Of a stretch of 64,000 bases of DNA, positions 9,428-21,091 are shown one piece after another. A model generated the notes under the pieces. That model was given only the letters and a program-made list of their open reading frames with translations. It did no database searches and had not been told where the DNA came from. Source of the DNA: Candidatus Saccharimonadota bacterium (GTDB lineage: Bacteria > Patescibacteriota > Saccharimonadia > Saccharimonadales > UBA4665). The position numbers and the translations under genes are program-made. Positions within the stretch are counted from its first letter, which is position 1, and the number at the start of each line of letters is the position of its first letter. The stretch covers positions 62,001-126,000 of the forward strand of contig JAQBRY010000004.1 in NCBI GenBank assembly GCA_028286245.1, in the 5' to 3' direction.

Positions 9428-10123
9428 TTACAGCAAGGGACTGAGCATGTTCTGTGAACCACGAAGCATGAGGTCACTCGCAGCATTCTGAAGATGCTCT
9501 CGATCGCCGACCGCTGGCCACCCCTCATTGTGGGCCAGTATCAATGCATTCTGCAAAGGCGTGTGTATATCCTCAGGCAGTTCGAGTTGCTTGAGTGCCC
9601 TGAAGTCATGTCTAAAGCCAACAGTGACGCCTTTGTCATCCGGTACTTCCAAATGAGTGAGTCTTGTCGATCTTGTTACTGGTATGCCAACCCGGTCTGG
9701 ATGCGAACGAGCCCGGTCCAGTATATTGTAAAGCATGCCTTCGAGCAGCGTTTCTTCGAGGGGCTTTGCTAGGTCATACTGCTCCGCGATGCTCGGGTCT
9801 GTCCAGGTGCTGAGCGCTACTTCTGTAGCGGCACCGTCACTGCCCGTGCCCTTAATCTCGGCATACCCTACTGCTTGATACGGTAACGCATAGCGATTGC
9901 TGAAATCATACACATATGCTCCGACCAGGACTCTGCCCTTGCCCTTCAAGACGAGTGGCGACTGTTTATCCTTTAGAAAGTCTGTGAGCGCATATACTAC
10001 TGCATGCGAACCGGCCTGAGCCGCCATTAAATCTCGAGTTTTACGTATGGCTGTAGCCTGCTCTCCTAGATAACCTAGCCGGACGGGTTCAGCAATCGCA
10101 TCGTTTGGCCCTATATATCGCAT
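9428..10123 (-). CDS. hypothetical protein
   Basis: 231 residues, soluble, no signal peptide or membrane helix. Mixed alpha/beta composition with a beta-rich middle (GRVLVGAYVYDFSNRYALPY and AVGYAEIKGTGS). I do not recognise a family. It follows the 10139-10795 gene by 15 nt with a Shine-Dalgarno-like AAGGTGAG about 9 nt before the ATG, so the two are one transcription unit and probably act together. Confidence 0.65.
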   Translation of the reverse strand: MRYIGPNDAIAEPVRLGYLGEQATAIRKTRDLMAAQAGSHAVVYALTDFLKDKQSPLVLKGKGRVLVGAYVYDFSNRYALPYQAVGYAEIKGTGSDGAATEVALSTWTDPSIAEQYDLAKPLEETLLEGMLYNILDRARSHPDRVGIPVTRSTRLTHLEVPDDKGVTVGFRHDFRALKQLELPEDIHTPLQNALILAHNEGWPAVGDREHLQNAASDLMLRGSQNMLSPLL

Positions 10124-10138
10124 GGTTAATTACTCACC

Positions 10139-10795
10139 TTAGGCGGCTAGGGGTGTTACGATGGACACGCCATTTTCTTGAAAGAGTAGAGGCAACGGTA
10201 CCGTACACAGTATGCCATCAGAAAAGAACTCTTCGCCCCCTGAACCCCTGAGCGGGCGACCATCATGCAGGTTTAGTACGGTGCTCGCAACATGACTGTC
10301 AAACTGAGCCAGCAGTGGCCCATTGCCACTAATGGTCACCTTCCTAGTTTGGTACAGGCTGGTGTCGACACTGAAGTCCGGAATTAGCAAGGTGGCACCA
10401 TCTGCAACATGACCTAAAAAGCTCGCAATGCGAGCGGCTCGACTTTGGCGTTCGCCCTTTTCGACAGGCGCAGTAATCATAGCCATGAGGTCCGCTCGTT
10501 CAGTTCTCTGTTTCCCCGTATCTTTTCGGATATCTTTCCTTTCGAGGCCCCCGTTAGTGTATTGTATGCGAGCATTAATACCAATGTGTCGCCGCACGTT
10601 ATCCTTCAGAAGTGTAATTGGATCAAGCACATCGGTTGCAAGATCGTAGCCGGAAACGAAATTGATACGGTCTGCCTGTGCATGATGCCCGGGGCTAGTA
10701 GGGTCAAGAGCGTCAAGCTTTTGGTAGTAGCCGACGAGCGCCTCCATGCGGTGACTATAACTTGGTAAAATCAGCATTTCCTGTAATAACGGCAT
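10139..10795 (-). CDS. hypothetical protein
   Basis: 218 residues from the chosen start. The ATG at 10795 has AAAGGAG with a 6-nt spacer; an in-frame ATG at 10825 exists but lies 2 nt from the -10 box, so transcription would start inside it. Helical N-terminal half (MEALVGYYQKLDALDP), basic middle (GGLERKDIRKDTGKQRTERA), then a beta-rich C-terminal half. No known motif. First gene of a two-gene unit with 9428-10123. Confidence 0.65.
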   Translation of the reverse strand: MPLLQEMLILPSYSHRMEALVGYYQKLDALDPTSPGHHAQADRINFVSGYDLATDVLDPITLLKDNVRRHIGINARIQYTNGGLERKDIRKDTGKQRTERADLMAMITAPVEKGERQSRAARIASFLGHVADGATLLIPDFSVDTSLYQTRKVTISGNGPLLAQFDSHVASTVLNLHDGRPLRGSGGEEFFSDGILCTVPLPLLFQENGVSIVTPLAA

Positions 10796-10827
10796 CGCAA
10801 CTCCTTTATGACTAGTGGATGACATTA

Positions 10828-10856
10828 GTTATAAACTTCAAAACTATCAAATGCAA
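10828..10856 (-). promoter_or_regulatory. promoter of the two-gene unknown operon
   Basis: Minus strand TTGCAT (10851-10856), 17-bp spacer, TATAAC (10828-10833), then a leader of about 25 nt with a good ribosome binding site to the ATG at 10795. Confidence 0.55.
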
Positions 10857-10969
10857 GCATCCGCGTTTATAAAAAACAGTAGTTTTTCTTGGCTCGATAA
10901 AAACTTTCTCTCTTATAAAATGAGCAGCTCTACGTAATGCATACTAATACCTATGAGAAAGTTAATGAA

Positions 10970-11001
10970 AAATTAAAGAGCCGCTCCTGGGAGCGGCTCT
11001 T
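10970..11001 (-). terminator. intrinsic terminator of rplJ-rplL
   Basis: Perfect inverted repeat AAGAGCCGCTCC / GGAGCGGCTCTT just past rplL, followed on the minus strand by a T-rich run. Confidence 0.9.
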
Positions 11002-11026
11002 GGCGAAGTTCCGGGAAATCCGGGAA

Positions 11027-11404
11027 CTAGGCGAGTTCGACAGTAGCGCCGGCAGCTTCGAGAGCTTTCTTGGCAGCTTCTGCGTCTTCGGTTTTAGCAG
11101 CTTCGAGAACGGCCTTTGGAGCACCGTCAACGATAGCTTTTGCTTCACCAAGGCCAAGACCAGTAATGTCTTTAACAGCCTTAATAACAGCAACCTTAGC
11201 GGCACCAGCATCCTTAAGGATGACATCGTATTCGCTCTTTACATCTTCTGCAGGAGCGTCAGCGCCAGCAGCAGGACCGGCAACAGCAACAGCTGCAGCA
11301 GCTGGCTCAATGCCGTATTCGTCCTTGAGGACGTTCTTAAGTTCGTTTACTTCAAGTACAGTCAAGCTTGTAAGCTGTTCTGCGAGTTTCTTTAAATCTG
11401 CCAT
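11027..11404 (-). CDS. rplL: ribosomal protein bL12 (L7/L12)
   Basis: 125 residues with the usual layout: N-terminal dimerisation helices ([20 protein letters not shown]), an Ala-rich hinge (about 38-52) and the C-terminal factor-binding domain ([20 protein letters not shown]). It forms the L7/L12 stalk on L10 that recruits translation GTPases. AAGGA precedes the ATG at 11404. Second gene of the rplJ-rplL unit, 27 nt after rplJ. Confidence 0.97.
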
Positions 11405-11431
11405 GGAAGGTTCCTTTTCGTGATTAGTTAA

Positions 11432-11953
11432 TTAAGCTTTAGCGTCAGCTACGCCGTCAAGTAACGCGTGCAGGTTGCCCGATAGCGCGTTGGTAACGTC
11501 GTGAACTGGTGAAAGCAGTGTTGCAATAACCTGGGCAATGAGCTGGTCTTTGCCGGGGAGTAGTGCCAGTGCCTTTACGTCATCAGGGCTTAAGAAAGCG
11601 CCTTCTGCCGAAATGGCCCCTACGAATTCAATCGTTGGGTTAGTTTTAGCAAAAGTATTCAGGCTCTGAGCCGGCGCTACTTCGTCTAAGCTGTTAAAAG
11701 CGTAGAGGAGCATGCCTTCTAGGGCTGAAGTCTCGACATCCTTGAGGGCATCAGTTTGCTGTAAAGCTTTGATGACCAAACGGTTCTTGACCACTTTTAC
11801 TTTAGTGCCGTTTTCCTTGGCGTCTTTGCGAAGCGTCTGTAATGCTTTAACAGTGGTGCCTTGGAATTTGGCGACAACAGTCATTTTAGAGGCGGCAAGC
11901 AAGCCTGCAACTTCTGCAACAACGTCATCTTTTTCAACTTTTGTTAGTGCCAT
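11432..11953 (-). CDS. rplJ: ribosomal protein uL10
   Basis: 173 residues. The ATG at 11953 has AAAGGAG at good spacing; an upstream in-frame extension lies inside the structured leader and is rejected. Typical L10 blocks are VVAKFQGTTVKALQTLRKDA and VKNRLVIKAL; the C-terminal helices bind L12 dimers. L10 commonly represses its own operon by binding the leader, and a structured leader is present here. Confidence 0.96.
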   Translation of the reverse strand: MALTKVEKDDVVAEVAGLLAASKMTVVAKFQGTTVKALQTLRKDAKENGTKVKVVKNRLVIKALQQTDALKDVETSALEGMLLYAFNSLDEVAPAQSLNTFAKTNPTIEFVGAISAEGAFLSPDDVKALALLPGKDQLIAQVIATLLSPVHDVTNALSGNLHALLDGVADAKA

Positions 11954-12150
11954 GTGTACTCCTTTGGAGTAATTATGCTTACGATCTGCGTTCGACCTCT
12001 GCAGATCCGTTGCCAAACAAAAACGCCTTCTAGGTTTTTGTTCCAGAAGACGTGCAAACGCTCATAAATGAGTTTGTTTGTACCTCGGCGACTGATTAAG
12101 ACGTTTCTTAGGAGTTATCCATCGAATTGTCCGTCGCTGTCTCTGGCAAC
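11954..12150 (-). promoter_or_regulatory. rplJ leader RNA with alternative hairpins (L10-leader-like)
   Basis: The leader of about 195 nt holds a perfect 7-bp stem GATCTGC/GCAGATC (11983-11989 with 12001-12007). Upstream of it two helices share a base: AACAAAAAC/GTTTTTGTT (12016-12024 with 12034-12042) and an 8-nt pairing CGCCTTCT/AGAAGACG (12024-12031 with 12045-12052). They cannot form at once except as a pseudoknot, which suggests a switch. Position matches known L10-binding leaders; identity is inference. Confidence 0.55.
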
Positions 12151-12159
12151 TTATCTGCT

Positions 12160-12188
12160 ATTTTACACTGTTATCAGCTGTAAATCAA
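12160..12188 (-). promoter_or_regulatory. rplJ-rplL promoter
   Basis: Minus strand TTGATT (12183-12188), 17-bp spacer, TAAAAT (12160-12165). It overlaps the 3' end of the upstream gene (12163-12471). Confidence 0.65.
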
Positions 12189-12471
12189 CCGTTTCCGGTG
12201 ACAAAGGTGGACGAGCGGCACGCATAAAGTCCGCCCGCGCCTCCGCTCTCATTTCGTCACGACGATCTTTGGCGCGATCTGAATTGCCGGGATAGTCATC
12301 ATCAATGCGTTGCAGAGCGTCCTCATAGATCATTTGTTGTACCTCATTGTACGTTGGCTCGGCAGATGGGACTTCTGCGTTGGTACCAAGTATGCCCTCA
12401 TATCGGTAGTGTGGACGAACGCGTTCTGCGTATGGTGGTCGGACGTAACAATTTATTTGATTTTCTTTCAT
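12163..12471 (-). CDS. small charged hypothetical protein
   Basis: 102 residues, polar and probably helical in the second half (AKDRRDEMRAEARADFMRAA); the N-terminus is Tyr/Arg/Pro-rich (YVRPPYAERVRPHYRYEG). No known family. Start ATG at 12471 follows AGGAG with a 7-nt spacer; a longer in-frame reading would cross a terminator and is rejected. No promoter is visible between that terminator and the ATG, so expression seems to need read-through from the upstream short-ORF unit. Confidence 0.65.
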   Translation of the reverse strand: MKENQINCYVRPPYAERVRPHYRYEGILGTNAEVPSAEPTYNEVQQMIYEDALQRIDDDYPGNSDRAKDRRDEMRAEARADFMRAARPPLSPETVDLQLITV

Positions 12472-12489
12472 GGTAATTCTCCTGGTATT

Positions 12490-12514
12490 AAAAAAGCTTC
12501 CGGAGGGAAGCTTT
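12490..12514 (-). terminator. intrinsic terminator between short ORF and gene (attenuator candidate)
   Basis: Minus strand reads AAAGCTTCC, short loop, GGAAGCTTTTTT: an 8-bp stem with a T run. It lies after the 32-residue ORF and 19 nt before the ATG at 12471. Confidence 0.8.
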
Positions 12515-12535
12515 GGTTGTTGTTGCTGGCTGCGT

Positions 12536-12634
12536 TTACTTTTTTGCTTCAATCCGAATCGGGACACGTGGTGTAATGCCCAAAATAATCAAAATTTCTG
12601 CCAAGATGCTGCGTTTATTGTTCGTGTAGCTCAT
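12536..12634 (-). CDS. leaderless 32-residue ORF, possible leader peptide
   Basis: ATG at 12634, TAA at 12536-12538. The peptide is short and contains an Ile/Leu-rich core (ILAEILIILGITPRV) and a basic tail. The -10 box of a strong promoter ends 7 nt before the ATG, and an intrinsic terminator follows the stop by about 20 nt. Promoter, ORF and terminator form a compact unit upstream of the 12163-12471 gene. It could be a leader peptide that controls read-through, or a short functional peptide. Confidence 0.5.
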   Translation of the reverse strand: MSYTNNKRSILAEILIILGITPRVPIRIEAKK

Positions 12635-12641
12635 TGGTACT

Positions 12642-12670
12642 ATTTTACGCCCCCTTTGCAAGCCCGTCAA
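12642..12670 (-). promoter_or_regulatory. promoter, leaderless arrangement
   Basis: Minus strand TTGACG (12665-12670), exact 17-bp spacer, TAAAAT (12642-12647), 7 nt to the ATG at 12634. Confidence 0.75.
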
Positions 12671-12723
12671 TCTCATTAGTCCTTAAGCTGTTATTTTTAT
12701 GATAAAAATGGTATAAAAGTACG

Positions 12724-13554
12724 ATGCATAGTTCAATACTACCCGGCTTTGCCGTGGCCGGGCCAAACGCCCGTTTACTGCACACCGACACTACTCCGGA
12801 AGTCGTTCATACCAATGACGGGCAAAGAGTTGTTCCGTCAGAGGCCGTACTAGCTCATCTGAACGATCTACGCATTGTCGCCAAGGAGGTGTCACCGGTA
12901 ACGCCCGGTGCGCTCGCGCCCATAATTCCGGAAGAGGGCGCGTTAACGGATCAAATCACAAGTTGGAAGCAATTAAATGAGCAGACCTATGCTCCCTATC
13001 AGGATTTATGGGGCTGTTATAAGGACGCCTTGCGTACAAACGACACTTCAAAGGCAAAAAGGCTATACGCCGCAAGGGCAGCTATCGGGACTATGGCCGC
13101 ACTATTAGAAGTTACCGCCACGATAGCTCCCCTGGTAAATCCGGAAAAAGCTGATGATGAGTTGGCCGGTATTGCTATGGCCTCGCGCGGGTTATTAACC
13201 GCCTGGTACTCACTCTCTGGCAGCAGTGATAGCAGCCTCACTTTCCACTTATTACGAAAGCCGCGTCCGCGCATCCCGGCATTTGATAACGAAGAACAAA
13301 AGTTTCTAGCGGTCTGCGACATGCACTTCGAGCCAAGTAAGTTTGCCTACATTGGCGGCCACGTCACGCTTGATCCGGCTATCCTGCCCCGGTTTATGCG
13401 TGGCAAAAAGAAGAAATTTGCCATGAGGGATGCTCCTAACGCTGTCATCTTTGGCTGCCCGGCTCATCATATTGTTCCAGCACTGCATGGCACCATGGTT
13501 GAGAGCGCCCGTGTTAACCAGCTTTTTTCTCAAACCTATCAGGCAACCCACTAG
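12724..13554 (+). CDS. hypothetical protein
   Basis: 276 residues, soluble with a short hydrophobic stretch around an all-helical middle (AIGTMAALLEVTATIAPLVN). The C-terminal third is beta-rich with a basic patch (RFMRGKKKKFAMRD). No family recognised. TATAAA ends 6 nt before the ATG, indicating a leaderless mRNA. It is divergent from the 32-residue ORF, the two promoters lying back to back. Confidence 0.7.
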   Translation: MHSSILPGFAVAGPNARLLHTDTTPEVVHTNDGQRVVPSEAVLAHLNDLRIVAKEVSPVTPGALAPIIPEEGALTDQITSWKQLNEQTYAPYQDLWGCYKDALRTNDTSKAKRLYAARAAIGTMAALLEVTATIAPLVNPEKADDELAGIAMASRGLLTAWYSLSGSSDSSLTFHLLRKPRPRIPAFDNEEQKFLAVCDMHFEPSKFAYIGGHVTLDPAILPRFMRGKKKKFAMRDAPNAVIFGCPAHHIVPALHGTMVESARVNQLFSQTYQATH

Positions 13555-13568
13555 TAACCACAATAGTT

Positions 13569-13597
13569 TTGATTTTCACATCGGATTTTGATATAAT
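13569..13597 (+). promoter_or_regulatory. strong promoter of the 23-residue ORF / 13802 gene
   Basis: TTGATT (13569-13574), 17-bp spacer, TATAAT (13592-13597) with an extended TG upstream of the -10. Six nt separate the -10 from a GTG start at 13604. Confidence 0.8.
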
Positions 13598-13603
13598 GGT
13601 ATC

Positions 13604-13675
13604 GTGACAAATTACGTTTTCGACTTTACGCAGCAGGCATGCAAGCACACAGCTCGCATGATTTTGCACGCCTAG
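13604..13675 (+). CDS. leaderless 23-residue ORF with GTG start, possible leader peptide
   Basis: GTG at 13604 to TAG at 13673. The peptide begins MTNYVFDFTQQACKH and ends ARMILHA. The GTG sits exactly where a leaderless start is expected. The surrounding RNA can fold into nested pairs (GTGAC/GTCAC at 13604-13608 with 13686-13690; CGACT/AGTCG at 13621-13625 with 13674-13678; AGGC/GCCT), and an intrinsic terminator follows. Alternative reading: a non-coding structured RNA of about 145 nt. Confidence 0.45.
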   Translation: MTNYVFDFTQQACKHTARMILHA

Positions 13676-13714
13676 TCGGAATTCGGTCACCAAATATTTA
13701 ATCAGAAAACAAAC

Positions 13715-13749
13715 AACCGGATTCCAACACAAGGAAGCCGGTTTTTTTT
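13715..13749 (+). terminator. intrinsic terminator before the 13802 gene (attenuator candidate)
   Basis: AACCGG-A-TTCC, loop, GGAA-G-CCGGTT followed by T8. It lies 40 nt after the 23-residue ORF and 52 nt before the next gene on the same strand. Confidence 0.85.
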
Positions 13750-13801
13750 GAGCAAACCCCTAAAAATAGCGCGAGTAGAGAAATAGTTAGAGAGAAGTAG
13801 T

Positions 13802-14347
13802 ATGTCCCCAAGCCAAACAATCAGTTACGAAGCAGCATCTATCCAGCGGACAAATGTCCGACGGTTGAATGTTGCCAGCCTTATTGATTATCATATGCAG
13901 CGTCTTGAGACTAAGGCCCGTTTAGAGCCATACCTATGGCGTCTTGATAAGGCTTTTGCAGAAACTGATGTGCAGCTCATTGAACATGTGGCCTTTAATG
14001 CCACTTTCCACCACGACCCTAAGGATACCAATCTTATCATTTGGCCAACCGGAGTAGAATCCGCTACTGACCTGCACGGGCTTTTCTTGGCACAGTTTGG
14101 TCATGAAGCGGTAGATATTCCTGTAGCCGCCCAGACGCCTGCCGTTCTGCGTGCCAGCGAAAACACCCGGTTGCTCCTGGCTCGGACTGGCTCCCTCGAT
14201 GCCGCTGGCGTTGCCTCGGTTACCTATGTGTTACGTGACCCTGAGTCCGAAAGCGAATTCCAAACGGCAGTACCGCAGATAGCAACTGATACTAGTCAGC
14301 TAATACTGAGCCAATTCGTGGATTTTTCTAGCGCAATACGGCACTAG
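13802..14347 (+). CDS. hypothetical protein
   Basis: 181 residues, soluble. The N-terminal segment YEAASIQRTNVRRLNVASLI and the positioned strands/helices (LEPYLWRLDKAFAETDVQLI, then AFNATFHHDPKDTNLIIWP) resemble the ribosome-associated RaiA/HPF layout only loosely; I do not assign it. A purine-rich GAGAGAAG precedes the ATG. No promoter is visible after the terminator at 13715-13749, so it is probably expressed by read-through from the promoter at 13569. Confidence 0.6.
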   Translation: MSPSQTISYEAASIQRTNVRRLNVASLIDYHMQRLETKARLEPYLWRLDKAFAETDVQLIEHVAFNATFHHDPKDTNLIIWPTGVESATDLHGLFLAQFGHEAVDIPVAAQTPAVLRASENTRLLLARTGSLDAAGVASVTYVLRDPESESEFQTAVPQIATDTSQLILSQFVDFSSAIRH

Positions 14348-14353
14348 TACTTA

Positions 14354-16720
14354 TTAGTCGCTGAGCTTACTGAGTTTGAACTGGGTGTAGCGCTCTGCGG
14401 CCAGTCTGGTGAGGGCCGGATCTTCGTCGGTATTTACAAAGCGCATGGCTGCACCGAGCTGCGGATGGACTTCGCTCAGCTTTTCGTGCATTTGCATTAC
14501 TAGCTTGCGGTAGCCGGGATGACCCTGGGGACTGGTGCGGAGTTCGTGGAGGTGGAACGCTTCCCGGGCGTTGTAGGTGACCTTCCAGCGCATCTTGTGG
14601 CCGAGCAGTGTAGCGTACTGGGCCTCCAGCGCGTAGCCGGATTTTTGGAGCAGGCTGTAGAGCTTAAGGCTGATTTCAAAACAGGCTTCAAACTGATCAG
14701 TTAGGCCCGCGTCTTCGATAAGCTGCGGTGTTTCGTAGCCATAACGCGGTGTGAGGGCCTGCCACTCGAGGTCATCAACCATTCGGTGGCGCTGGAGGTC
14801 GCAGAATATGCCAAAGTCGCACACTAAGTCCCAGTTATAGTGGGCTTTTTCGATAGCTCTACCTGGACGGTGACGGCGATTGAGACGCTCACCAACGTAG
14901 GCATTCAGGACTTGTGATTTTTTATCGTACGACCAGGTTTCGGTTTCTTTTTGAATGTCTTCGAGCGACAGATCACTGTGCTCATACAGCATGTCAGCGA
15001 CTAAACTGAGCTCATTGCGCGGCCAGTAGTCTACTAGGGTTACGGGTTCTGTTGCTGAGGCGTAACCAGCTGGAAGCTCTTTCTCGGCAATCTCTTTTAC
15101 GCCTGCTGATGTCTGGGCCCGGTACGCTATGATTGCTCCGCCGCGATCAGGCTTGTCGGCTCGTTCTAGGAAAGTTGGTAGCACTTTGCGGGCTTCGGTA
15201 AGGATTTGCTGGCCCACATCACGGGCTTCTGAGAACTCACTGCTCAAAAGATGCATAATCAAACTTTCCAAGGCCTGGCCTGATGCAAAGATGCCGACAG
15301 TAGTAGTCACGGCCGTAGGCAAGACCACACGAACAGCATCGCAGGCCTGCGCCCGGATGGCACTGCGCCACGCGCCATCACGCTCTTGCTGAGGAGTATC
15401 CGATTTATTTTCAATATAGCTCGTCAGATTGTGCACCATTGAGGAATACAGATCAAAAATGGTATCCATGGCCTCAATGTACTGTTTTTTGACAGCGGGC
15501 TTAAGAGTAGTCGGAATATAGTAGCGGTATCTACCGTTCTCGTCCTTAGTATCAAAGTAAATGTAGCGCGTAGACTGCTCCAGGTAGGCAGCTAAGCGAC
15601 CCCACTCGAGCACGTTAGTTAGGAGTTTGGTGGCACCCTCAACAATGATGTATTGGCCGACGAGCTGCTGCACCGAGTCATCGCCGTACGCGGTAATGAC
15701 ACGCTGGATGAGCTTTTGGTCCTTATCCATATTGCCGGCGAACTCATCGAGCATGGTAATGCGCATGTCGTCACCGCGGCGACTGAGGCGCGCCATGGCG
15801 GCTGCCGTGGTCATGGCATCGAGCTTTTTAGTGGTGGCATAGACGTTGCCCTCTACATTGGTAACACGCTCTTTTAGCCAAGCCTTGCCGGCGGCCGTAG
15901 CCTTCATGCCGTACTGAGTTTTTTCTACCAAGGCTACATCTTCACTAATTGCCGGGTCGGCGGCGGTGGTAGCGGGCTGTGCGGCGACAGTAGCCGGGCT
16001 GCTATTTTCGAGGGGAGGCTCGTGTGGAGCAGCTTGTTTTTGTGCGAGAATCTGCTTAATAGGTGTGGGCTCGGCAGGAGTTTTACTGGAGCGAACCGAT
16101 AGTTCCTGGCTCACAAGCTCCCAGATCTGATCAGAAACTTTTTCGGGACTGCTGGTTGCAAAGACTACTGGGAAATTACGCTGCTTAGCTTCCCATAAGT
16201 AGCCGGCACGGACGCGCTCAAGGAAAGCTTCATCCAAATTATCGAAGCGCTCGCCGCTGTAGCGGTCTTTTACGCGGGATTTAAGGACCGGTGCCGGCGC
16301 ATCCATAACAATACAAAGGTCCGGTTCGTTGTCGCCAACGGCAAATTTAATAATGCTAGAGATAGTTTGATAATCCGGCACATCGCCCCGGCCGTAGTAC
16401 TGAATGGCGAGCGTCGTCAGGTAATTACGGTCCACTAAGCAGATAATTCCCTGTTCAACGCTATCGTGGATTACTTCTAGAGACTGGGAGCGGGCAGCGT
16501 TATAGAGCAATACCTCGGTACGAGTGTTCATGGGGTAGCGCGGGTCCTGGGTGAGGTGTCGAATGGCCCGGGCTGTTAGGTCGCTTTGACTATCTGGTTC
16601 ACGCAGCGTACGGACGGGGAAACCGGCCGCTTGGAGACGACGGGCTAACTCGTTGAGCTGAGTGGTCTTGCCAACACCCTCCGGACCTTCAATAACAATA
16701 TATTTGCCGCGATTACTCAT
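14354..16720 (-). CDS. thymidylate kinase fused to two ThyX-like domains
   Basis: 788 residues. Residues 1-205 are dTMP kinase: Walker A GPEGVGKTT (12-20), DRNY near 97-100, and a lid DRYSGERFD (152-160). An Ala/Pro-rich linker (212-260) leads to two tandem domains resembling flavin-dependent thymidylate synthase. Copy 1 (about 290-510) keeps EQSTRY (381-386) but has WGR where RHR is expected. Copy 2 (about 555-760) keeps QRHR (643-646) but not the following Ser, and has a ThyX-like HLHELRTSPQGHP (723-735). The protein could make dTMP from dUMP and phosphorylate it to dTDP; whether the degenerate copies form one working site is inference. The start overlaps the end of dcd by 8 nt, so the two are co-expressed. 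Confidence 0.85.
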   Translation of the reverse strand: MSNRGKYIVIEGPEGVGKTTQLNELARRLQAAGFPVRTLREPDSQSDLTARAIRHLTQDPRYPMNTRTEVLLYNAARSQSLEVIHDSVEQGIICLVDRNYLTTLAIQYYGRGDVPDYQTISSIIKFAVGDNEPDLCIVMDAPAPVLKSRVKDRYSGERFDNLDEAFLERVRAGYLWEAKQRNFPVVFATSSPEKVSDQIWELVSQELSVRSSKTPAEPTPIKQILAQKQAAPHEPPLENSSPATVAAQPATTAADPAISEDVALVEKTQYGMKATAAGKAWLKERVTNVEGNVYATTKKLDAMTTAAAMARLSRRGDDMRITMLDEFAGNMDKDQKLIQRVITAYGDDSVQQLVGQYIIVEGATKLLTNVLEWGRLAAYLEQSTRYIYFDTKDENGRYRYYIPTTLKPAVKKQYIEAMDTIFDLYSSMVHNLTSYIENKSDTPQQERDGAWRSAIRAQACDAVRVVLPTAVTTTVGIFASGQALESLIMHLLSSEFSEARDVGQQILTEARKVLPTFLERADKPDRGGAIIAYRAQTSAGVKEIAEKELPAGYASATEPVTLVDYWPRNELSLVADMLYEHSDLSLEDIQKETETWSYDKKSQVLNAYVGERLNRRHRPGRAIEKAHYNWDLVCDFGIFCDLQRHRMVDDLEWQALTPRYGYETPQLIEDAGLTDQFEACFEISLKLYSLLQKSGYALEAQYATLLGHKMRWKVTYNAREAFHLHELRTSPQGHPGYRKLVMQMHEKLSEVHPQLGAAMRFVNTDEDPALTRLAAERYTQFKLSKLSD

Positions 16721-17426
16721 AGGATAGCCCCTCGACTTTCTTGGGCATTCTGCGCTCGTCTTTGTAGGCTTTTGGCAGCATCATATCCGGCGTCCAGGTT
16801 TTAATAATGGTTTCGATGTCGGTACCCTGCTGGTACTTGCCGCTAAACTGATTATCGCGGCCGGCACCGTAGTTGCCATCAACTTCGCCGGTTTCGTGGA
16901 ATACAATCTGTGCAAAGCGTTCGCCAACAGGCAGCAGTACTGTTTCGCGCTCATTTAAGTTGTAGATTTCTAGTGTTAAACGGTTAATGTACCCCGGATC
17001 AATCCAGCCGGCGTCAAAACAAACGGCAATACCGTTGCGTCCCCAGCTGGAACGGCTGCGAACTTCGCAGGCGCCCGGCGGTCGAATACCAAAAAATTCG
17101 TGGGTGTGCGCCAAAATTCGCTCTTTTGGCTTGAGGCTAATGACCGGGTGATCAAGAGGAATGTTTGCAACCGGCTTAAAGCCGTTCAAAGCGGCCCATT
17201 CACCATGCGGCATGGCTTTGTAGGGCCCGTCAAAGTAACGTTCAACGTCTTCTTTGTCGAAGGGGTTGTAGATAGTCCGGTCCTGCATTTTTTCGATGCG
17301 GTAATAGTAGTAACCAAGGGTTACATCCAAGCTAGCATGACTGACGTGTTCAGGGATAAACGGGTGACAAACGATATGATTGTCGTCGATAGCCTGACGA
17401 ATCTGTGTGTTACTGTAAACAGCCAC
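16713..17426 (-). CDS. dcd: dCTP deaminase family protein
   Basis: 237 residues, somewhat longer than the usual 190. Family motifs are RSRSSWGRNGI near residue 123, CFDAGWIDPGYINRLTLEI and GERFAQIVFHETG. The enzyme deaminates dCTP to dUTP, or directly to dUMP in bifunctional members; the sequence alone does not tell which. The start is GTG at 17426 with GGAGGAG five nt upstream. It lies directly upstream of the Tmk-ThyX fusion, which would use dUMP. Confidence 0.9.
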   Translation of the reverse strand: MAVYSNTQIRQAIDDNHIVCHPFIPEHVSHASLDVTLGYYYYRIEKMQDRTIYNPFDKEDVERYFDGPYKAMPHGEWAALNGFKPVANIPLDHPVISLKPKERILAHTHEFFGIRPPGACEVRSRSSWGRNGIAVCFDAGWIDPGYINRLTLEIYNLNERETVLLPVGERFAQIVFHETGEVDGNYGAGRDNQFSGKYQQGTDIETIIKTWTPDMMLPKAYKDERRMPKKVEGLSYE

Positions 17427-17451
17427 TGTTACTCCTCCAAAGTTTTCCTAT

Positions 17452-17480
17452 ATTGTATGGAGAGTTCAGCCTAAACGCAA
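17452..17480 (-). promoter_or_regulatory. dcd operon promoter
   Basis: Minus strand TTGCGT (17475-17480), 17-bp spacer, TACAAT (17452-17457), then a leader of about 20 nt with a strong Shine-Dalgarno site before the GTG at 17426. Confidence 0.6.
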
Positions 17481-17537
17481 GTAGAATAATAATGTGATTT
17501 TTACGCAAATTAGTGTCAATAAACGCTTACGGCTATT

Positions 17538-18317
17538 TTATACCGGCTTTATGTCGCCTGCCGCTCGGTACTCGGTCTGCAAATGATTTGCCACCAGGTC
17601 GTGGTAGACTTTTCGGCTGCAAGCCGCTAAATCCTCGAGATTGCCGTCATTTATAATTAAGCTGTCGTAAACTACCATGGAACGCTCTCGCTCGGTGACA
17701 TCATTAGCATCGGATACGCCAATGTGCGGGCGGTGCACTGCCAGGATAACCGATCTGGGGTATTTGCGAAGGCTAATAGTGTCGGCCGGAAAACGCACGC
17801 CGCCGGCCGTTACGATGTCGGCTGGCGCTTCTAGGGCCCGGCAGACAATTTCGTCAAACCACAGGGTTCCCGATACGTTTTTAGCCAAATAGCCGCCGAG
17901 CCACTGTAGTAATGGTCTAAACTGGGCCTTATTGTCGGCTGTAATGATTTGCTGCTGCGGAATTATATCGGCTACCAGGTACGTAAAGTAGCTAAAAAGC
18001 CGTTCATAGTGATCCGCCTTGGCTGCAAAGTCGGCCGCAGTAACTTTAAGTGAGTCGTAGGATACTTTTACGCGGGTGTGCGTTAGCAGGTAGCCTGGCA
18101 AGTCCTTGAGCCACGCCGCTAATAAAATATTTCTATCGGCATCGCTATATTGCACATGCGGCTCAATAGGTATAGAGCGGGTGCGAAGGGCGTTAGCAAT
18201 CTCAATAATGATATCTGACGATTCAAAATGTATATGGGATGGGGCGGACTGCCCCAAATAATTGGCAAAGGTCGTTTTGCCGTGCCCAATGCTGCCAGTA
18301 ATACCCACAATGATCAT
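17538..18317 (-). CDS. P-loop kinase, probably a dNMP-kinase-like protein
   Basis: 259 residues from ATG 18317. The N-terminus reads MIIVGITGSIGHGKTTFANY, a clean Walker A. Later LLQWLGGYLAKNVSGTLWFD resembles the conserved block of phage-type deoxynucleoside monophosphate kinases, followed by a strand VTAGGVRFPADTISLRKY. Dephospho-CoA kinase is an alternative but the mid-protein block fits less well. The start is fixed by a TACACT box 6 nt upstream; a longer in-frame form would start before the promoter. It lies upstream of dcd and tmk-thyX on the same strand, consistent with deoxynucleotide metabolism. Confidence 0.65.
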   Translation of the reverse strand: MIIVGITGSIGHGKTTFANYLGQSAPSHIHFESSDIIIEIANALRTRSIPIEPHVQYSDADRNILLAAWLKDLPGYLLTHTRVKVSYDSLKVTAADFAAKADHYERLFSYFTYLVADIIPQQQIITADNKAQFRPLLQWLGGYLAKNVSGTLWFDEIVCRALEAPADIVTAGGVRFPADTISLRKYPRSVILAVHRPHIGVSDANDVTERERSMVVYDSLIINDGNLEDLAACSRKVYHDLVANHLQTEYRAAGDIKPV

Positions 18318-18323
18318 GCTTAG

Positions 18324-18351
18324 AGTGTAGCGCATGTCCGGATACAAACAA
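18324..18351 (-). promoter_or_regulatory. promoter overlapping the rplA terminator, leaderless
   Basis: Minus strand TTGTTT (18346-18351), 16-bp spacer, TACACT (18324-18329), 6 nt to ATG 18317. The -35 box is formed by the T-rich tail of the rplA terminator. Confidence 0.55.
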
Positions 18352-18380
18352 AAACCCGTCTGCTACTTGGCAGACGGGTT
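18351..18380 (-). terminator. intrinsic terminator of rplK-rplA
   Basis: Minus strand AACCCGTCTGCC, short loop, GCAGACGGGTTTTTG: an 11-bp stem and T run right after rplA. Confidence 0.9.
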
Positions 18381-18402
18381 ATGTGCACGCAAACGAGAGC
18401 TG

Positions 18403-19365
18403 CTAGTTGATACTAGTCAGGTCGACGGCTATAGAAGGACCCATGCTGGTGGTAATGTAGGCAGCTTTAAAGTAGTTGCCCTTTACGCTGGCTGGCTTGT
18501 TGGCCTTGACGCTGGTAAGTACGGCTTGAACATTTAAGAGCAAGTCGGGCCCAGTAAAGCTCACCTTGCCGACGCCGAGGTGCACAATACCGGTAGTATC
18601 TACGCGATATTCAACGCGTCCGGCCTTAGCTTCGGCAACAGCCCGGTTAACATCGTTGGTAACCGTACCGCTCTTTGGGTTAGGCATTAGGCCGCGTGGA
18701 CCAAGTACACGAGCGTACTTTCCGAGCTTGGGCATAAGCGCCGGGGTGGCAATAAGTATGTCAAAGTTCATATCACCCTTTTCTAAACGGGCAAGAACTT
18801 CTTCGTTGCCGGCTAGTTCAGCGCCTGCAGCGGTAGCAGCGGCCGGATCATCCGTAAGCACCACAATGCGAACGTTTTTACCGGTGCCAGCTGGCAGCAC
18901 CAAGTTATCACGAATGTTCTGGTCGGCGTGGCGTGGATCAACGCCCAGGTTGATGTGCATTTCTACCGTCGCATCAAATTTAACATGGCTAGTAGTGCGA
19001 GCAAGCTCGACGGCTTCTTCCAGATTATACTTTTTGCCCACTTCTACCAGAGCAGCTTTTTCGCGGAATAATTTGCCGCGGCGTTCTAGGCGTGAACGGG
19101 TTGGGTTGCTGTGCTGGCGAGGTTTCTCGGCTTCGTCTTCACCACTTTCCTTGCGCTCTTCCTTAGCGGTCTTTTCGGCGCTTTCTTCGAGCGCTTTAGC
19201 GCTACGCTTACCGGCTTTGGCAATTGGCTTTGGAGCCTTCTCTTCTTCGACCGGTGTTTCAACGATAGTATCGCTAGCAATAACAGAAGTATCTTGAGCG
19301 TCGGCAATAGCGGTTACTACTGCTGGTTCTTCTGATTTCTTGGTGGTTTTCTTGGCTGTCGCCAT
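18403..19365 (-). CDS. rplA: ribosomal protein uL1 with a long N-terminal extension
   Basis: 320 residues against the usual 225-235. The core begins around residue 90 (RRGKLFREKAALVEVGKKYN) and contains the L1 signature ILIATPALMPKLGKYARVLG followed by GLMPNPKSGTVT. Residues 1-90 are a low-complexity Lys/Glu/Ala/Ser-rich extension. The ATG at 19365 has AAAGGAG, so the extension is really translated. L1 forms the L1 stalk at the E site and in many bacteria represses the rplK-rplA operon. Confidence 0.96.
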   Translation of the reverse strand: MATAKKTTKKSEEPAVVTAIADAQDTSVIASDTIVETPVEEEKAPKPIAKAGKRSAKALEESAEKTAKEERKESGEDEAEKPRQHSNPTRSRLERRGKLFREKAALVEVGKKYNLEEAVELARTTSHVKFDATVEMHINLGVDPRHADQNIRDNLVLPAGTGKNVRIVVLTDDPAAATAAGAELAGNEEVLARLEKGDMNFDILIATPALMPKLGKYARVLGPRGLMPNPKSGTVTNDVNRAVAEAKAGRVEYRVDTTGIVHLGVGKVSFTGPDLLLNVQAVLTSVKANKPASVKGNYFKAAYITTSMGPSIAVDLTSIN

Positions 19366-19426
19366 AGGGTTCTCCTTTGTGGTACAAACGATAGCCGCGG
19401 CTATCTCCCACAATAATTAATTGTTG

Positions 19427-19855
19427 TTAGGCTTCTACTTCAACGCCCATACTGCGAGCAGTACCGGCTACCATTTTCTTGATGGCTTCCACGTCGTCGG
19501 CGTTCATATCGTGCGCCTTCTCTTCGGCTATCTTTGTCAGCTGTGCTTGGGTAAGCTTTTTGCTGATCTTTTCGCTGTTTGGCTTGCCGGAACCCTTTTG
19601 GATACCGAGCTCGGCACGGATGCGATCATCGGTTGGCATACCTACCACACGAAAGGTCATGCTGCGGTCGTCATAAACAGTGATGTGAGCCGTAATGGTC
19701 GCACCTTGCATGTCTTTTGTCATTTCATTAAAAGGGTTAATGAAGTCCATCATGTTGACCCCGTACTGACCAAGCGTGCTACCCACGGGAGGCGCTGCAC
19801 TGGCTCGTCCACCAGGAATCTTCATTTTGAGGTTTGCTTTTACGGCTTTTGCCAT
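19427..19855 (-). CDS. rplK: ribosomal protein uL11
   Basis: 142 residues, canonical length. It contains the Pro-rich N-terminal block MKIPGGRASAAPPVGSTLGQ and the C-terminal rRNA-binding block (IAEEKAHDMNADDVEAIKKM, TARSMGVEV). It sits at the GTPase centre. AAGGAG precedes the ATG. rplA follows after about 60 nt. Confidence 0.97.
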   Translation of the reverse strand: MAKAVKANLKMKIPGGRASAAPPVGSTLGQYGVNMMDFINPFNEMTKDMQGATITAHITVYDDRSMTFRVVGMPTDDRIRAELGIQKGSGKPNSEKISKKLTQAQLTKIAEEKAHDMNADDVEAIKKMVAGTARSMGVEVEA

Positions 19856-19947
19856 GGGTTTCTCCTTATGTTCGAATGATATGTCATTTGGTCTGAAGTG
19901 ACCGACTGTTCATTCTCCTACCTTATTAGTAGTGCGTAACAGATGTG

Positions 19948-19976
19948 ATTATACGGTAAAAGCAGCCCAAAAGCAA
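19948..19976 (-). promoter_or_regulatory. rplK-rplA promoter
   Basis: Minus strand TTGCTT (19971-19976), 17-bp spacer, TATAAT (19948-19953). The leader to the rplK ATG is about 85 nt, so rplK-rplA can be transcribed independently of secE-nusG. Confidence 0.65.
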
Positions 19977-20015
19977 CTACTTAAGGGCTCAGATCTATAC
20001 CGTTGTATATGAAGT

Positions 20016-20414
20016 CTATGCCTCAGGATCGGATGGCGACATAGGCGGCCTAAATTCTTCCATGGCAGCAGTGTGATGACGGTATAATGCGGCTAGATGC
20101 CTGCATGCTAAACTGCCGCTGAGCGCCGTTAAGCCGACTAACCCGGTACCAATCAAATCGCTTGCAGTCGACTCACCGCTAAAAACGACGACACTGCCGA
20201 CACCAGCCGCGAGCGTACCGAGGGCTTCAATGCTAGACAATCGTCCTTCTCGCCTGGCTTCGCGGGTGTGCAGTAAGTACACCTCAGGCCGCTCTATAGG
20301 ATCATAGGGATTTCGTGCTGTATCTGCTGCGCTCCCGGCTGACCATAAAGCATGCTCAACAGAGGGAGAGCGATCTCTACGGTGGTGGTGTGGACCAAAT
20401 GCCGGCATAGCCAT
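20016..20414 (-). CDS. small membrane protein, unknown, between nusG and rplK
   Basis: 132 residues. A His/Arg-rich cytoplasmic N-terminus (FGPHHHRRDRSPS) precedes two hydrophobic segments (LGTLAAGVGSVVVF and LIGTGLVGLTALSGSLAC), likely a helical hairpin, and an acidic tail. No family recognised. AAGGA lies 10 nt before the ATG. It interrupts the usually tight nusG-rplK order; nusG ends 128 nt upstream and rplK has its own promoter. Confidence 0.6.
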   Translation of the reverse strand: MAMPAFGPHHHRRDRSPSVEHALWSAGSAADTARNPYDPIERPEVYLLHTREARREGRLSSIEALGTLAAGVGSVVVFSGESTASDLIGTGLVGLTALSGSLACRHLAALYRHHTAAMEEFRPPMSPSDPEA

Positions 20415-20542
20415 TATAGGTGTGTCCTTATACGGAAAGAGTTTGTTAGTGGGGCCTTGTAGGCATACATTTGCATGACAAATTGCGAACGAACTATTAA
20501 GCTCCGCTCATCATACTATTGCGCTAAAGTTTTGTCTAGCGA

Positions 20543-21091
20543 TTACACGCGCTTAACTTGGAGACTGTCGAGCTCAACAGGTGTTTCGCGACCAAACATG
20601 TTAACGAGGACCTTGAGTTTACCCTTTTGCGGATCAATCTCGCTAATACTGCCATCGAATCCCTTAAAAGGACCGTCGGTAATGTTTACGACGTCACCGG
20701 CATTAAAGTCAATCTTGTGCTTAGGCTGTTCAAGGCCCATACGCTTCTGTATCTTTTCGATTTCGTCTTGCTCAACCGGAGTGGGATCGGTACCGCTGCC
20801 TACAAATCCGGTAACGCCAGGGGTGTTGCGCACAATGTACCAAGCATCTTCGCTGAGCTTCATTTCTACGAGCACATAACCCTGGAAAATGCGCTTTTCT
20901 ACTACGCGGCGCTTGCCGTTTTTGATTTCGATCATTTTTTCTTTAGGTACTAAAACCTCAAAGATCTTGTCATTCATTTCTAAGGATTCAGCGCGCTGGC
21001 GAATGCTCTCGGCTACTTTTTCTTCGTAACCACTGTAGGTATGGATGGCGTACCACTGTTTGCTGGTATCGTAACGTTTACTGCTGTTCAT
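20543..21091 (-). CDS. nusG: transcription elongation/antitermination factor NusG
   Basis: 182 residues. The NGN domain starts WYAIHTYSGYEEKVAESI and the C-terminal KOW domain reads FNAGDVVNITDGPFKGFDGS. It binds RNA polymerase and links it to Rho or the ribosome. The ATG at 21091 has AAAGGAG. It follows secE by 35 nt. Confidence 0.97.
   Translation of the reverse strand: MNSSKRYDTSKQWYAIHTYSGYEEKVAESIRQRAESLEMNDKIFEVLVPKEKMIEIKNGKRRVVEKRIFQGYVLVEMKLSEDAWYIVRNTPGVTGFVGSGTDPTPVEQDEIEKIQKRMGLEQPKHKIDFNAGDVVNITDGPFKGFDGSISEIDPQKGKLKVLVNMFGRETPVELDSLQVKRV

Follow-up and report, generated by a model that had tools for sequence, protein, structure and literature searches.

A dTMP kinase fused to two complementary ThyX copies: a probable split-site thymidylate synthase in Saccharibacteria

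Results

A dTMP kinase and two ThyX copies share one open reading frame

The window, i.e. the whole stretch of DNA analysed here, comprises 64,000 nucleotides of a contig from a Candidatus Saccharimonadota bacterium, a very small episymbiont. Positions 14354 to 16720, which the initial annotation had delimited correctly but without naming a strand, contain a sole long open reading frame on the minus strand, which starts with ATG and encodes 788 amino acids; the plus-strand frame across this region has many stops. The gene and its neighbor are composed as follows.

14354..16720, minus strand: whole fusion gene, 788 aa, Tmk, linker, ThyX copy 1 and ThyX copy 2 (open reading frame and Pfam)
16106..16720, minus strand: dTMP kinase domain, residues 1–205 (TIGR00041 above cut-off, PF02223)
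16664..16687, minus strand: kinase P-loop G12-P-E-G-V-G-K-T19 (GPEGVGKT, residues 12–19; sequence)
15911..16105, minus strand: weakly conserved linker, residues 206–270 (conservation profile)
15131..15910, minus strand: ThyX copy 1, residues 271–530 (PF02511, fold Z 14.8 to ThyX)
15596..15604, minus strand: copy 1 W373-G374-R375 at the place of canonical R78-H79-R80 (alignment to single-domain ThyX)
15563..15580, minus strand: copy 1 E381-Q-S383-T-R385-Y386, equivalent to E86/S88/R90/Y91 (same alignment)
15329..15331, minus strand: copy 1 R464, equivalent to R147 (same alignment)
14357..15130, minus strand: ThyX copy 2, residues 531–788 (PF02511, fold Z 14.5 to ThyX)
14783..14791, minus strand: copy 2 R644-H645-R646, equivalent to R78-H79-R80 (same alignment)
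14564..14572, minus strand: copy 2 N717-A-R719, equivalent to N163-A-R165 (same alignment)
14537..14539, minus strand: copy 2 R728, equivalent to R174 (same alignment)
16713..17426, minus strand: dcd, upstream dCTP deaminase-like gene overlapping the fusion gene by 8 nt (PF22769, 9.9e-33)

The assignment of residues 1–205 to dTMP kinase held: residues 4–199 match TIGR00041 with 99.8 bits (curated cut-off 83.25) as well as PF02223 (5.4e-27). The whole domain including the P-loop is thus matched to bacterial dTMP kinases (TIGR00041; 4e5u and others), but unlike in the ordinary enzymes the kinase is here located N-terminally to ThyX. The organism's own genome (1.13 Mb, 94.4% complete) gave no further match to this kinase. 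The remainder of the protein matches PF02511 (Thy1) in two stretches, with 120.4 bits against a cut-off of 24.8 and 1e-34 overall. The NCBIfam thyX equivalog model TIGR02170 scores the ThyX part with 44.2 bits, i.e. below its cut-off of 87.9, which was passed by one of five other tandem ThyX proteins scanned.

A match to the fusion protein is present in 88 of 93 genomes of the family, and full-length relatives with 41–77% identity occur across most of this Saccharibacteria family; those relatives that are named are Candidatus Saccharibacteria. Record CAJCIR010000029.1 (L159), titled "Chlamydiae bacterium", also carries the Saccharibacteria fusion gene, and its title is probably wrong.

Among 80 loci of named relatives, 75 of which have at least 900 nt of upstream sequence, 73 carry dcd directly upstream in the same orientation, and a short overlap is the commonest arrangement. 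Upstream of dcd in the window lies a further nucleotide-kinase-like gene (17538-18347, minus strand) with a weak, below-cut-off match to PF21448; at a comparable position, some relatives carry a second dTMP-kinase-like gene. By eye, genes for ribosomal proteins were recognized close to the fusion, L7/L12- and L10-like on one side and L1- and L11-like on the other (window positions 9428-21091), with a NusG-like gene also nearby.

Nine fusions of the family (L088, L089, L090, L092, L093, L063, L064, L048, L049) carry a second type of kinase. These kinases are 48–79% identical among themselves and 26–33% identical to the kinase of the window where more than 100 residues align; the five that were scanned all still match PF02223. 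The existence of fusions with either kinase type suggests that coupling of kinase and ThyX is useful, which does not imply channelling.

Both copies are predicted to adopt the ThyX fold

An AlphaFold2 model of the tandem was calculated from 46 aligned tandem sequences (mean pLDDT 79, pTM 0.80). Copy 2 of this model superimposes on Thermotoga maritima ThyX with Z 14.5 and an rmsd of 2.7 over 188 residues, and the first unrelated row of the fold search reaches only Z 5.6. Copy 1, modelled alone (pLDDT 79.5, pTM 0.70), matches Mycobacterium tuberculosis ThyX with Z 14.8 and an rmsd of 4.1–4.4 over 208–209 residues, the first unrelated row following at Z 6.0. Profile-profile alignment against eight single-domain ThyX proteins retrieved the two copies with 97.7% and 98.8% probability. 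The proposal that a ThyX-like fold is repeated twice is therefore borne out by Pfam, fold and profile-profile alignment. The same evidence (PF02511, both folds, profile-profile alignment) rules out that the copies are unrelated to ThyX, a finding that the initial annotation had named as refuting its reading.

Both copies share their fold with canonical ThyX/FDTS (T. maritima TM0449, 1o26; M. tuberculosis ThyX, 2af6/3gwc), which has one gene copy, a complete RHR-x7-S signature and four identical subunits, whereas the fusion comprises two fused, non-identical copies carrying half of the signature each. The atypical ThyX of Corynebacterium glutamicum (3ge9, 3fnn) likewise has this fold and, according to the entry titles, also exists beside ThyA; unlike the fusion it is a single-domain protein and no tandem.

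The ThyX signature is divided between the two copies

Signature residues are numbered according to T. maritima ThyX. In copy 1 of the window, W373/G374/R375 align with R78/H79/R80, E381/S383/R385/Y386 with E86/S88/R90/Y91, R464 with R147, and S480/Q482/L491 with N163/R165/R174. Hence, E86, S88, R90, Y91 and R147 are present, and R78, H79 and R174 are absent. In copy 2, the corresponding residues are R644/H645/R646, A655/T657/R659/Y660, Q701 and N717/R719/R728, i.e. R78, H79, R80, N163, R165 and R174 are present and E86 and R147 are absent. The contiguous signature RHR-x7-S-x-R-Y occurs in neither copy, its halves being 263 residues apart. Each signature residue is found somewhere in the chain and all are matched only when both copies are counted together; position Q75 is occupied by Asp.

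These alignments agree with the initial description of copy 1, which had EQSTRY retained (E381–Y386) and WGR (W373-G374-R375) in place of RHR. For copy 2, retention of RHR and absence of E-x-S-x-R-Y were likewise found, but, as a small correction, R659 and Y660 align with R90 and Y91. The complementarity of the copies extends to residues that had not been drawn upon, namely R147 in copy 1 and R174, N163 and R165 in copy 2. The term "degenerate" is appropriate for each copy taken singly, but misleading for the whole protein, whose half-sites are near invariant.

This was evident from an alignment of 45 tandem proteins, of which 7 belong to the window's family, 30 stem from further genomes of the phylum, 7 from plasmid records and 1 from a phage. 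R78 is present in none of the first copies and in all 45 second copies; the respective numbers are 6 and 41 for H79, and 0 and 43 for R174. The reverse applies to S88 (45 versus 10), R90 (45 versus 10), Y91 (44 versus 9) and R147 (42 versus 1), and E86 is invariant in copy 1 (45/45) but does not rank among the five most frequent letters of copy 2. N163 and R165 are weakly informative (24 versus 38 each), and R80 is uninformative for the split (39 versus 38).

An alignment-free motif scan detected both motifs in 54 of 64 tandem proteins, always E-x-S-x-R-Y first and RH[RN] thereafter, at a spacing of about 210–310 residues, which approximates the domain length. (One of 20 further loci, L258, lacks a ThyX frame and was left out of the 64.) Among 28 single-domain ThyX proteins scanned, 11 contained both motifs, with RHR 8–9 residues before the other motif in 10 of them. 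One of the motifs is missing from the other ten tandem proteins, namely L245–L247, L063 (from a ThyA-bearing genome), L193, L231–L233, L255 and L257. L245, L246 and L247 form a divergent tandem group, in which the copy 1 motif is one residue longer (E-x-x-S-x-R-Y) and the residue pattern around the copy 2 Arg equivalent to R174 differs. In L231–L233, from three Patescibacteria, copy 2 lacks H79/R80 and copy 1 has Gly for R147; the ThyA match of one of these genomes (G186, L232) is weak and partial only, and the genomes of L231 and L233 are not among the ThyA matches listed.

As full-length relatives at 41–77% identity and 45 diverse proteins are split alike, the division cannot be attributed to chance. 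Taken together, the complementary split of the ThyX signature between the copies is real and confirmed.

Residue 75 deviates: it is Gln in 6 of 8 single-domain ThyX proteins but Asp in 40 of 45 second copies. PolB, which methylates UMP/dUMP, appears in the same fold lists as both copies (4p5a/4p5b). Both observations would fit two active copies working on a substrate or product other than dUMP/dTMP, e.g. a modified pyrimidine nucleotide. Fusion to dTMP kinases of two types, the upstream dcd gene and the near-exclusion with ThyA described below make such an activity very improbable.

Tandem ThyX probably traces back to a single duplication

Tandem ThyX proteins were found in Patescibacteria, on plasmids of Actinomycetota (Miltoncostaea, Euzebya), Bacillota (Bacillus, Paenibacillus) and Bacteroidota (Parabacteroides), and in one phage, Tunturi_5, of the acidobacterium Tunturiibacter; the groups outside Patescibacteria comprise few sequences each. 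In a maximum-likelihood tree of 29 first copies, 29 second copies and 19 single ThyX proteins, each group falls on one side of a branch (support 100/99, 97/95 and 97/87, respectively). This grouping supports a single duplication as the likely origin of tandem ThyX. Independent duplications in the individual groups are at variance with the tree, although, as the tree program cautions, certain long branches among the second copies might be grouped artefactually.

The public tandem proteins (plasmids, Tunturi_5, other Patescibacteria) belong to the same duplication clade as the fusion and exhibit the same split, but outside the Saccharibacteria order they measure about 430–600 aa and, as far as their frames were examined, are not fused to a dTMP kinase. 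The plasmid proteins (RefSeq-derived records) are annotated simply as "FAD-dependent thymidylate synthase", and PHROGs holds a thymidylate synthase family of 491 positions. Going by these entries, the fusion might be regarded as an ordinary enzyme of that name with a harmless internal duplication. We give this reading hardly any credence: neither copy holds a full site, residues on opposite sides of the site have been lost reciprocally in nearly all tandems examined, and the split is absent from existing annotation. Since the contiguous signature is found in neither copy, the fusion is, as far as can be judged from its sequence, a variant of ThyX rather than a canonical member.

Scans of viral contigs yielded 142 pattern matches, none of which was confirmed, and a further scan gave no match. 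Among open-licence papers, our literature search found none with a split ThyX site or a ThyX-thymidylate kinase fusion, and no title or abstract start describing tandem ThyX. The tandem as such is already known to databases under the plain thymidylate synthase name.

Tandem ThyX and ThyA are nearly mutually exclusive

The initial annotation had considered that a separate thyX or thyA gene elsewhere would contradict its reading. Neither a ThyA match nor a second ThyX was detectable in the organism's own genome, which at 94.4% completeness makes lack of another thymidylate synthase probable, not absolute. A match to thymidine kinase was likewise not detected in this 94.4% complete genome.

Among 379 genomes of the phylum, ThyA matches occur in 4 of 68 tandem genomes, all of them weak and partial, versus 206 of the 311 others; these are counts of related, non-independent genomes, and relatedness inflates the p-value. 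The 68 were obtained from 71 matches of the A3 profile after three short single-domain frames (G241, G275, G420) had been removed by eye, and the six tandem proteins of f29 (L239–L244), which the A3 profile missed, are counted among the 311. The lack of a ThyA match in the own genome together with this near-exclusion indicates that the tandem ThyX takes the place of ThyA in the organism.

Dihydrofolate reductase (DHFR) was considered as a further marker, as organisms with ThyX can lack this enzyme. DHFR matches occur in 42 of 93 family genomes, including 9 of the 10 with full ThyA, yet also in the own genome, which renders the marker uninformative.

The split site is mostly broken beside ThyA

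Ten family genomes encode a full ThyA (PF00303, E 1.6e-51 or better); G052, G065 and G083, with weak partial PF00303 matches only, were counted as lacking it. Nine site residues were scored in 78 family proteins; the first family alignment had comprised the 69 listed proteins without L054, and L054 and nine degenerate proteins were added to give the 78. All nine residues are intact in 62 proteins from genomes without full ThyA and in 2 from genomes with it, and the site is broken in 6 and 8 proteins, respectively. With G031, cut by a contig end, and L054, a paralog in G040 beside the intact tandem L053, left out, a broken split site is seen in 8 of 10 genomes with full ThyA versus 4 of 66 without (Fisher p about 1e-6, the genomes being related). 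The broken sites beside ThyA are spread over five genera, and genus g14 exhibits both states: three genomes with ThyA have a broken site and four without (G019–G022) an intact one.

Two relatives, G007 and G028, retain an intact split site beside full ThyA. Conversely, four genomes, all of genus g23, have a broken site and no ThyA match; G041, G044 and G045 also lack the kinase P-loop, and the frame of G042 is cut. Degenerate fusion relatives are kept as open frames in g23 (L056, L058, L060, L061), as is L054.

According to coordinates, nine of the ten ThyA-bearing genomes (G017, G018, G023, G066, G076, G092, G029, G007 and G028; loci L045–L049, L063, L091, L064 and L070) have a full-length thyA gene at a distance of no more than about 6 kb from the fusion gene. 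At these nine loci a DHFR match usually lies between or beside thyA and tmk-thyX, and most ThyX sites are broken. Gain of thyA by Patescibacteria is reported in PMC12455944.

These degraded proteins bear on the idea that the ThyX part is a pseudoenzyme, acting as scaffold or regulator of the fused kinase, in a cell that obtains its thymidine by salvage from the host. Five ThyA genomes (G017, G018, G023, G066, G076) maintain open frames lacking the E-x-S-x-R-Y region of copy 1 and RHR/R174 of copy 2, and in g23, where the ThyX site and in three genomes the P-loop are gone, one pair of genes exhibits a dN/dS of 0.15, dS being nearly saturated. In these degraded lineages a role other than catalysis is plausible, and the ratio for the g23 pair makes retention of such a role possible in this genus. 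However, a scaffold needs none of the nine site residues, which are intact in the protein of the window and in 61 others from genomes without full ThyA, and salvage is difficult to reconcile with the missing thymidine kinase match. For the window's protein we therefore consider the pseudoenzyme improbable.

Discussion

From the structure and context of the gene, the homology and fold of its product, the split of the residues and its conservation, and the lack of a match to another synthase, we propose, with a probability of about 0.83, that the fusion serves the organism as thymidylate synthase and dTMP kinase within a single chain, the synthase being a ThyX with a split site. Counted against this are the TIGR02170 shortfall, Asp at position 75, G007 and G028, genus g23, L231–L233 and the presence of DHFR. 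The initial proposal of an asymmetric ThyX site built from two complementary halves is supported.

R147, N163 and R165 are also part of the ThyX site and belong to the dUMP and flavin contacts and the acid catalysis of the two half-sites. Published structures give the split a structural sense. In the inhibitor complex of PBCV-1 ThyX, Gln-75 and the strictly conserved Arg-182 are contributed by monomer A, and Ser-88 and Gln-89 by monomer B (PMC3498832); Arg-182 presumably is the counterpart of T. maritima R174. R78 faces N1/C2=O of the flavin, and E86 and S88 hold the flavin edge (PMC11940539). Mutants of S88, R90 and Y91 are slower in the dUMP-triggered step, and these residues matter for turnover (PMC8316439). 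Based on these papers, the residues retained in copy 2 would be located on one side of a composite site and those retained in copy 1 on the other, so that each pair of copy 1 and copy 2 could form one complete site, and the reciprocal one could not be complete.

In the mechanism that we envisage, copy 2 would provide the "A" half (R78-H79-R80, N163, R165, R174), contacting dUMP and N1/C2=O of the flavin, and copy 1 would contribute the "B" half (E86, S88, R90, Y91, R147), responsible for the flavin edge, dUMP contacts and acid catalysis. Packing of the two copies against each other, either inside a single chain or across two, would create one complete site for FAD, dUMP and methylene-tetrahydrofolate, leaving the reciprocal interface dead; a pair of chains would then resemble the canonical tetramer, with two of the four sites live and the other two dead. 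Deoxyuridine nucleotides may be supplied by dcd, the upstream gene overlapping the fusion, and dTMP formed from dUMP would be passed, free or channelled, to the N-terminal kinase for conversion to dTDP. Such a protein could have evolved by an ancient tandem duplication of ThyX, followed by loss of complementary halves of the composite site from the two copies.

More speculatively, tandem ThyX might represent a second class of ThyX, an obligate pseudo-heterodimer in which one site is live and the other dead, and which arose by a single ancient duplication and spread over at least four phyla, mobile elements and a phage of a fifth. In Saccharibacteria, where it is coupled to two quite different types of dTMP kinase, the dead interface or the copy 2 scaffold would have acquired a second role in channelling dTMP or in allosteric control. 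We put this forward tentatively and hold it to be rather doubtful; if true, the second role could account for persistence of the protein once ThyA has appeared beside it and the catalytic residues decay.

ThyX is a drug target and a model for flavin-dependent one-carbon transfer. Genetically separable half-sites would allow each half to be mutated alone, which is impossible in a homotetramer, and the tandem would be a clear example from nature of how duplicated copies degenerate in complementary fashion within one active site. Searches for a contiguous signature, or application of the NCBI thyX cut-off, would miss such synthases in Patescibacteria, and the split-site enzyme suggests the route by which many of these organisms may obtain dTMP.
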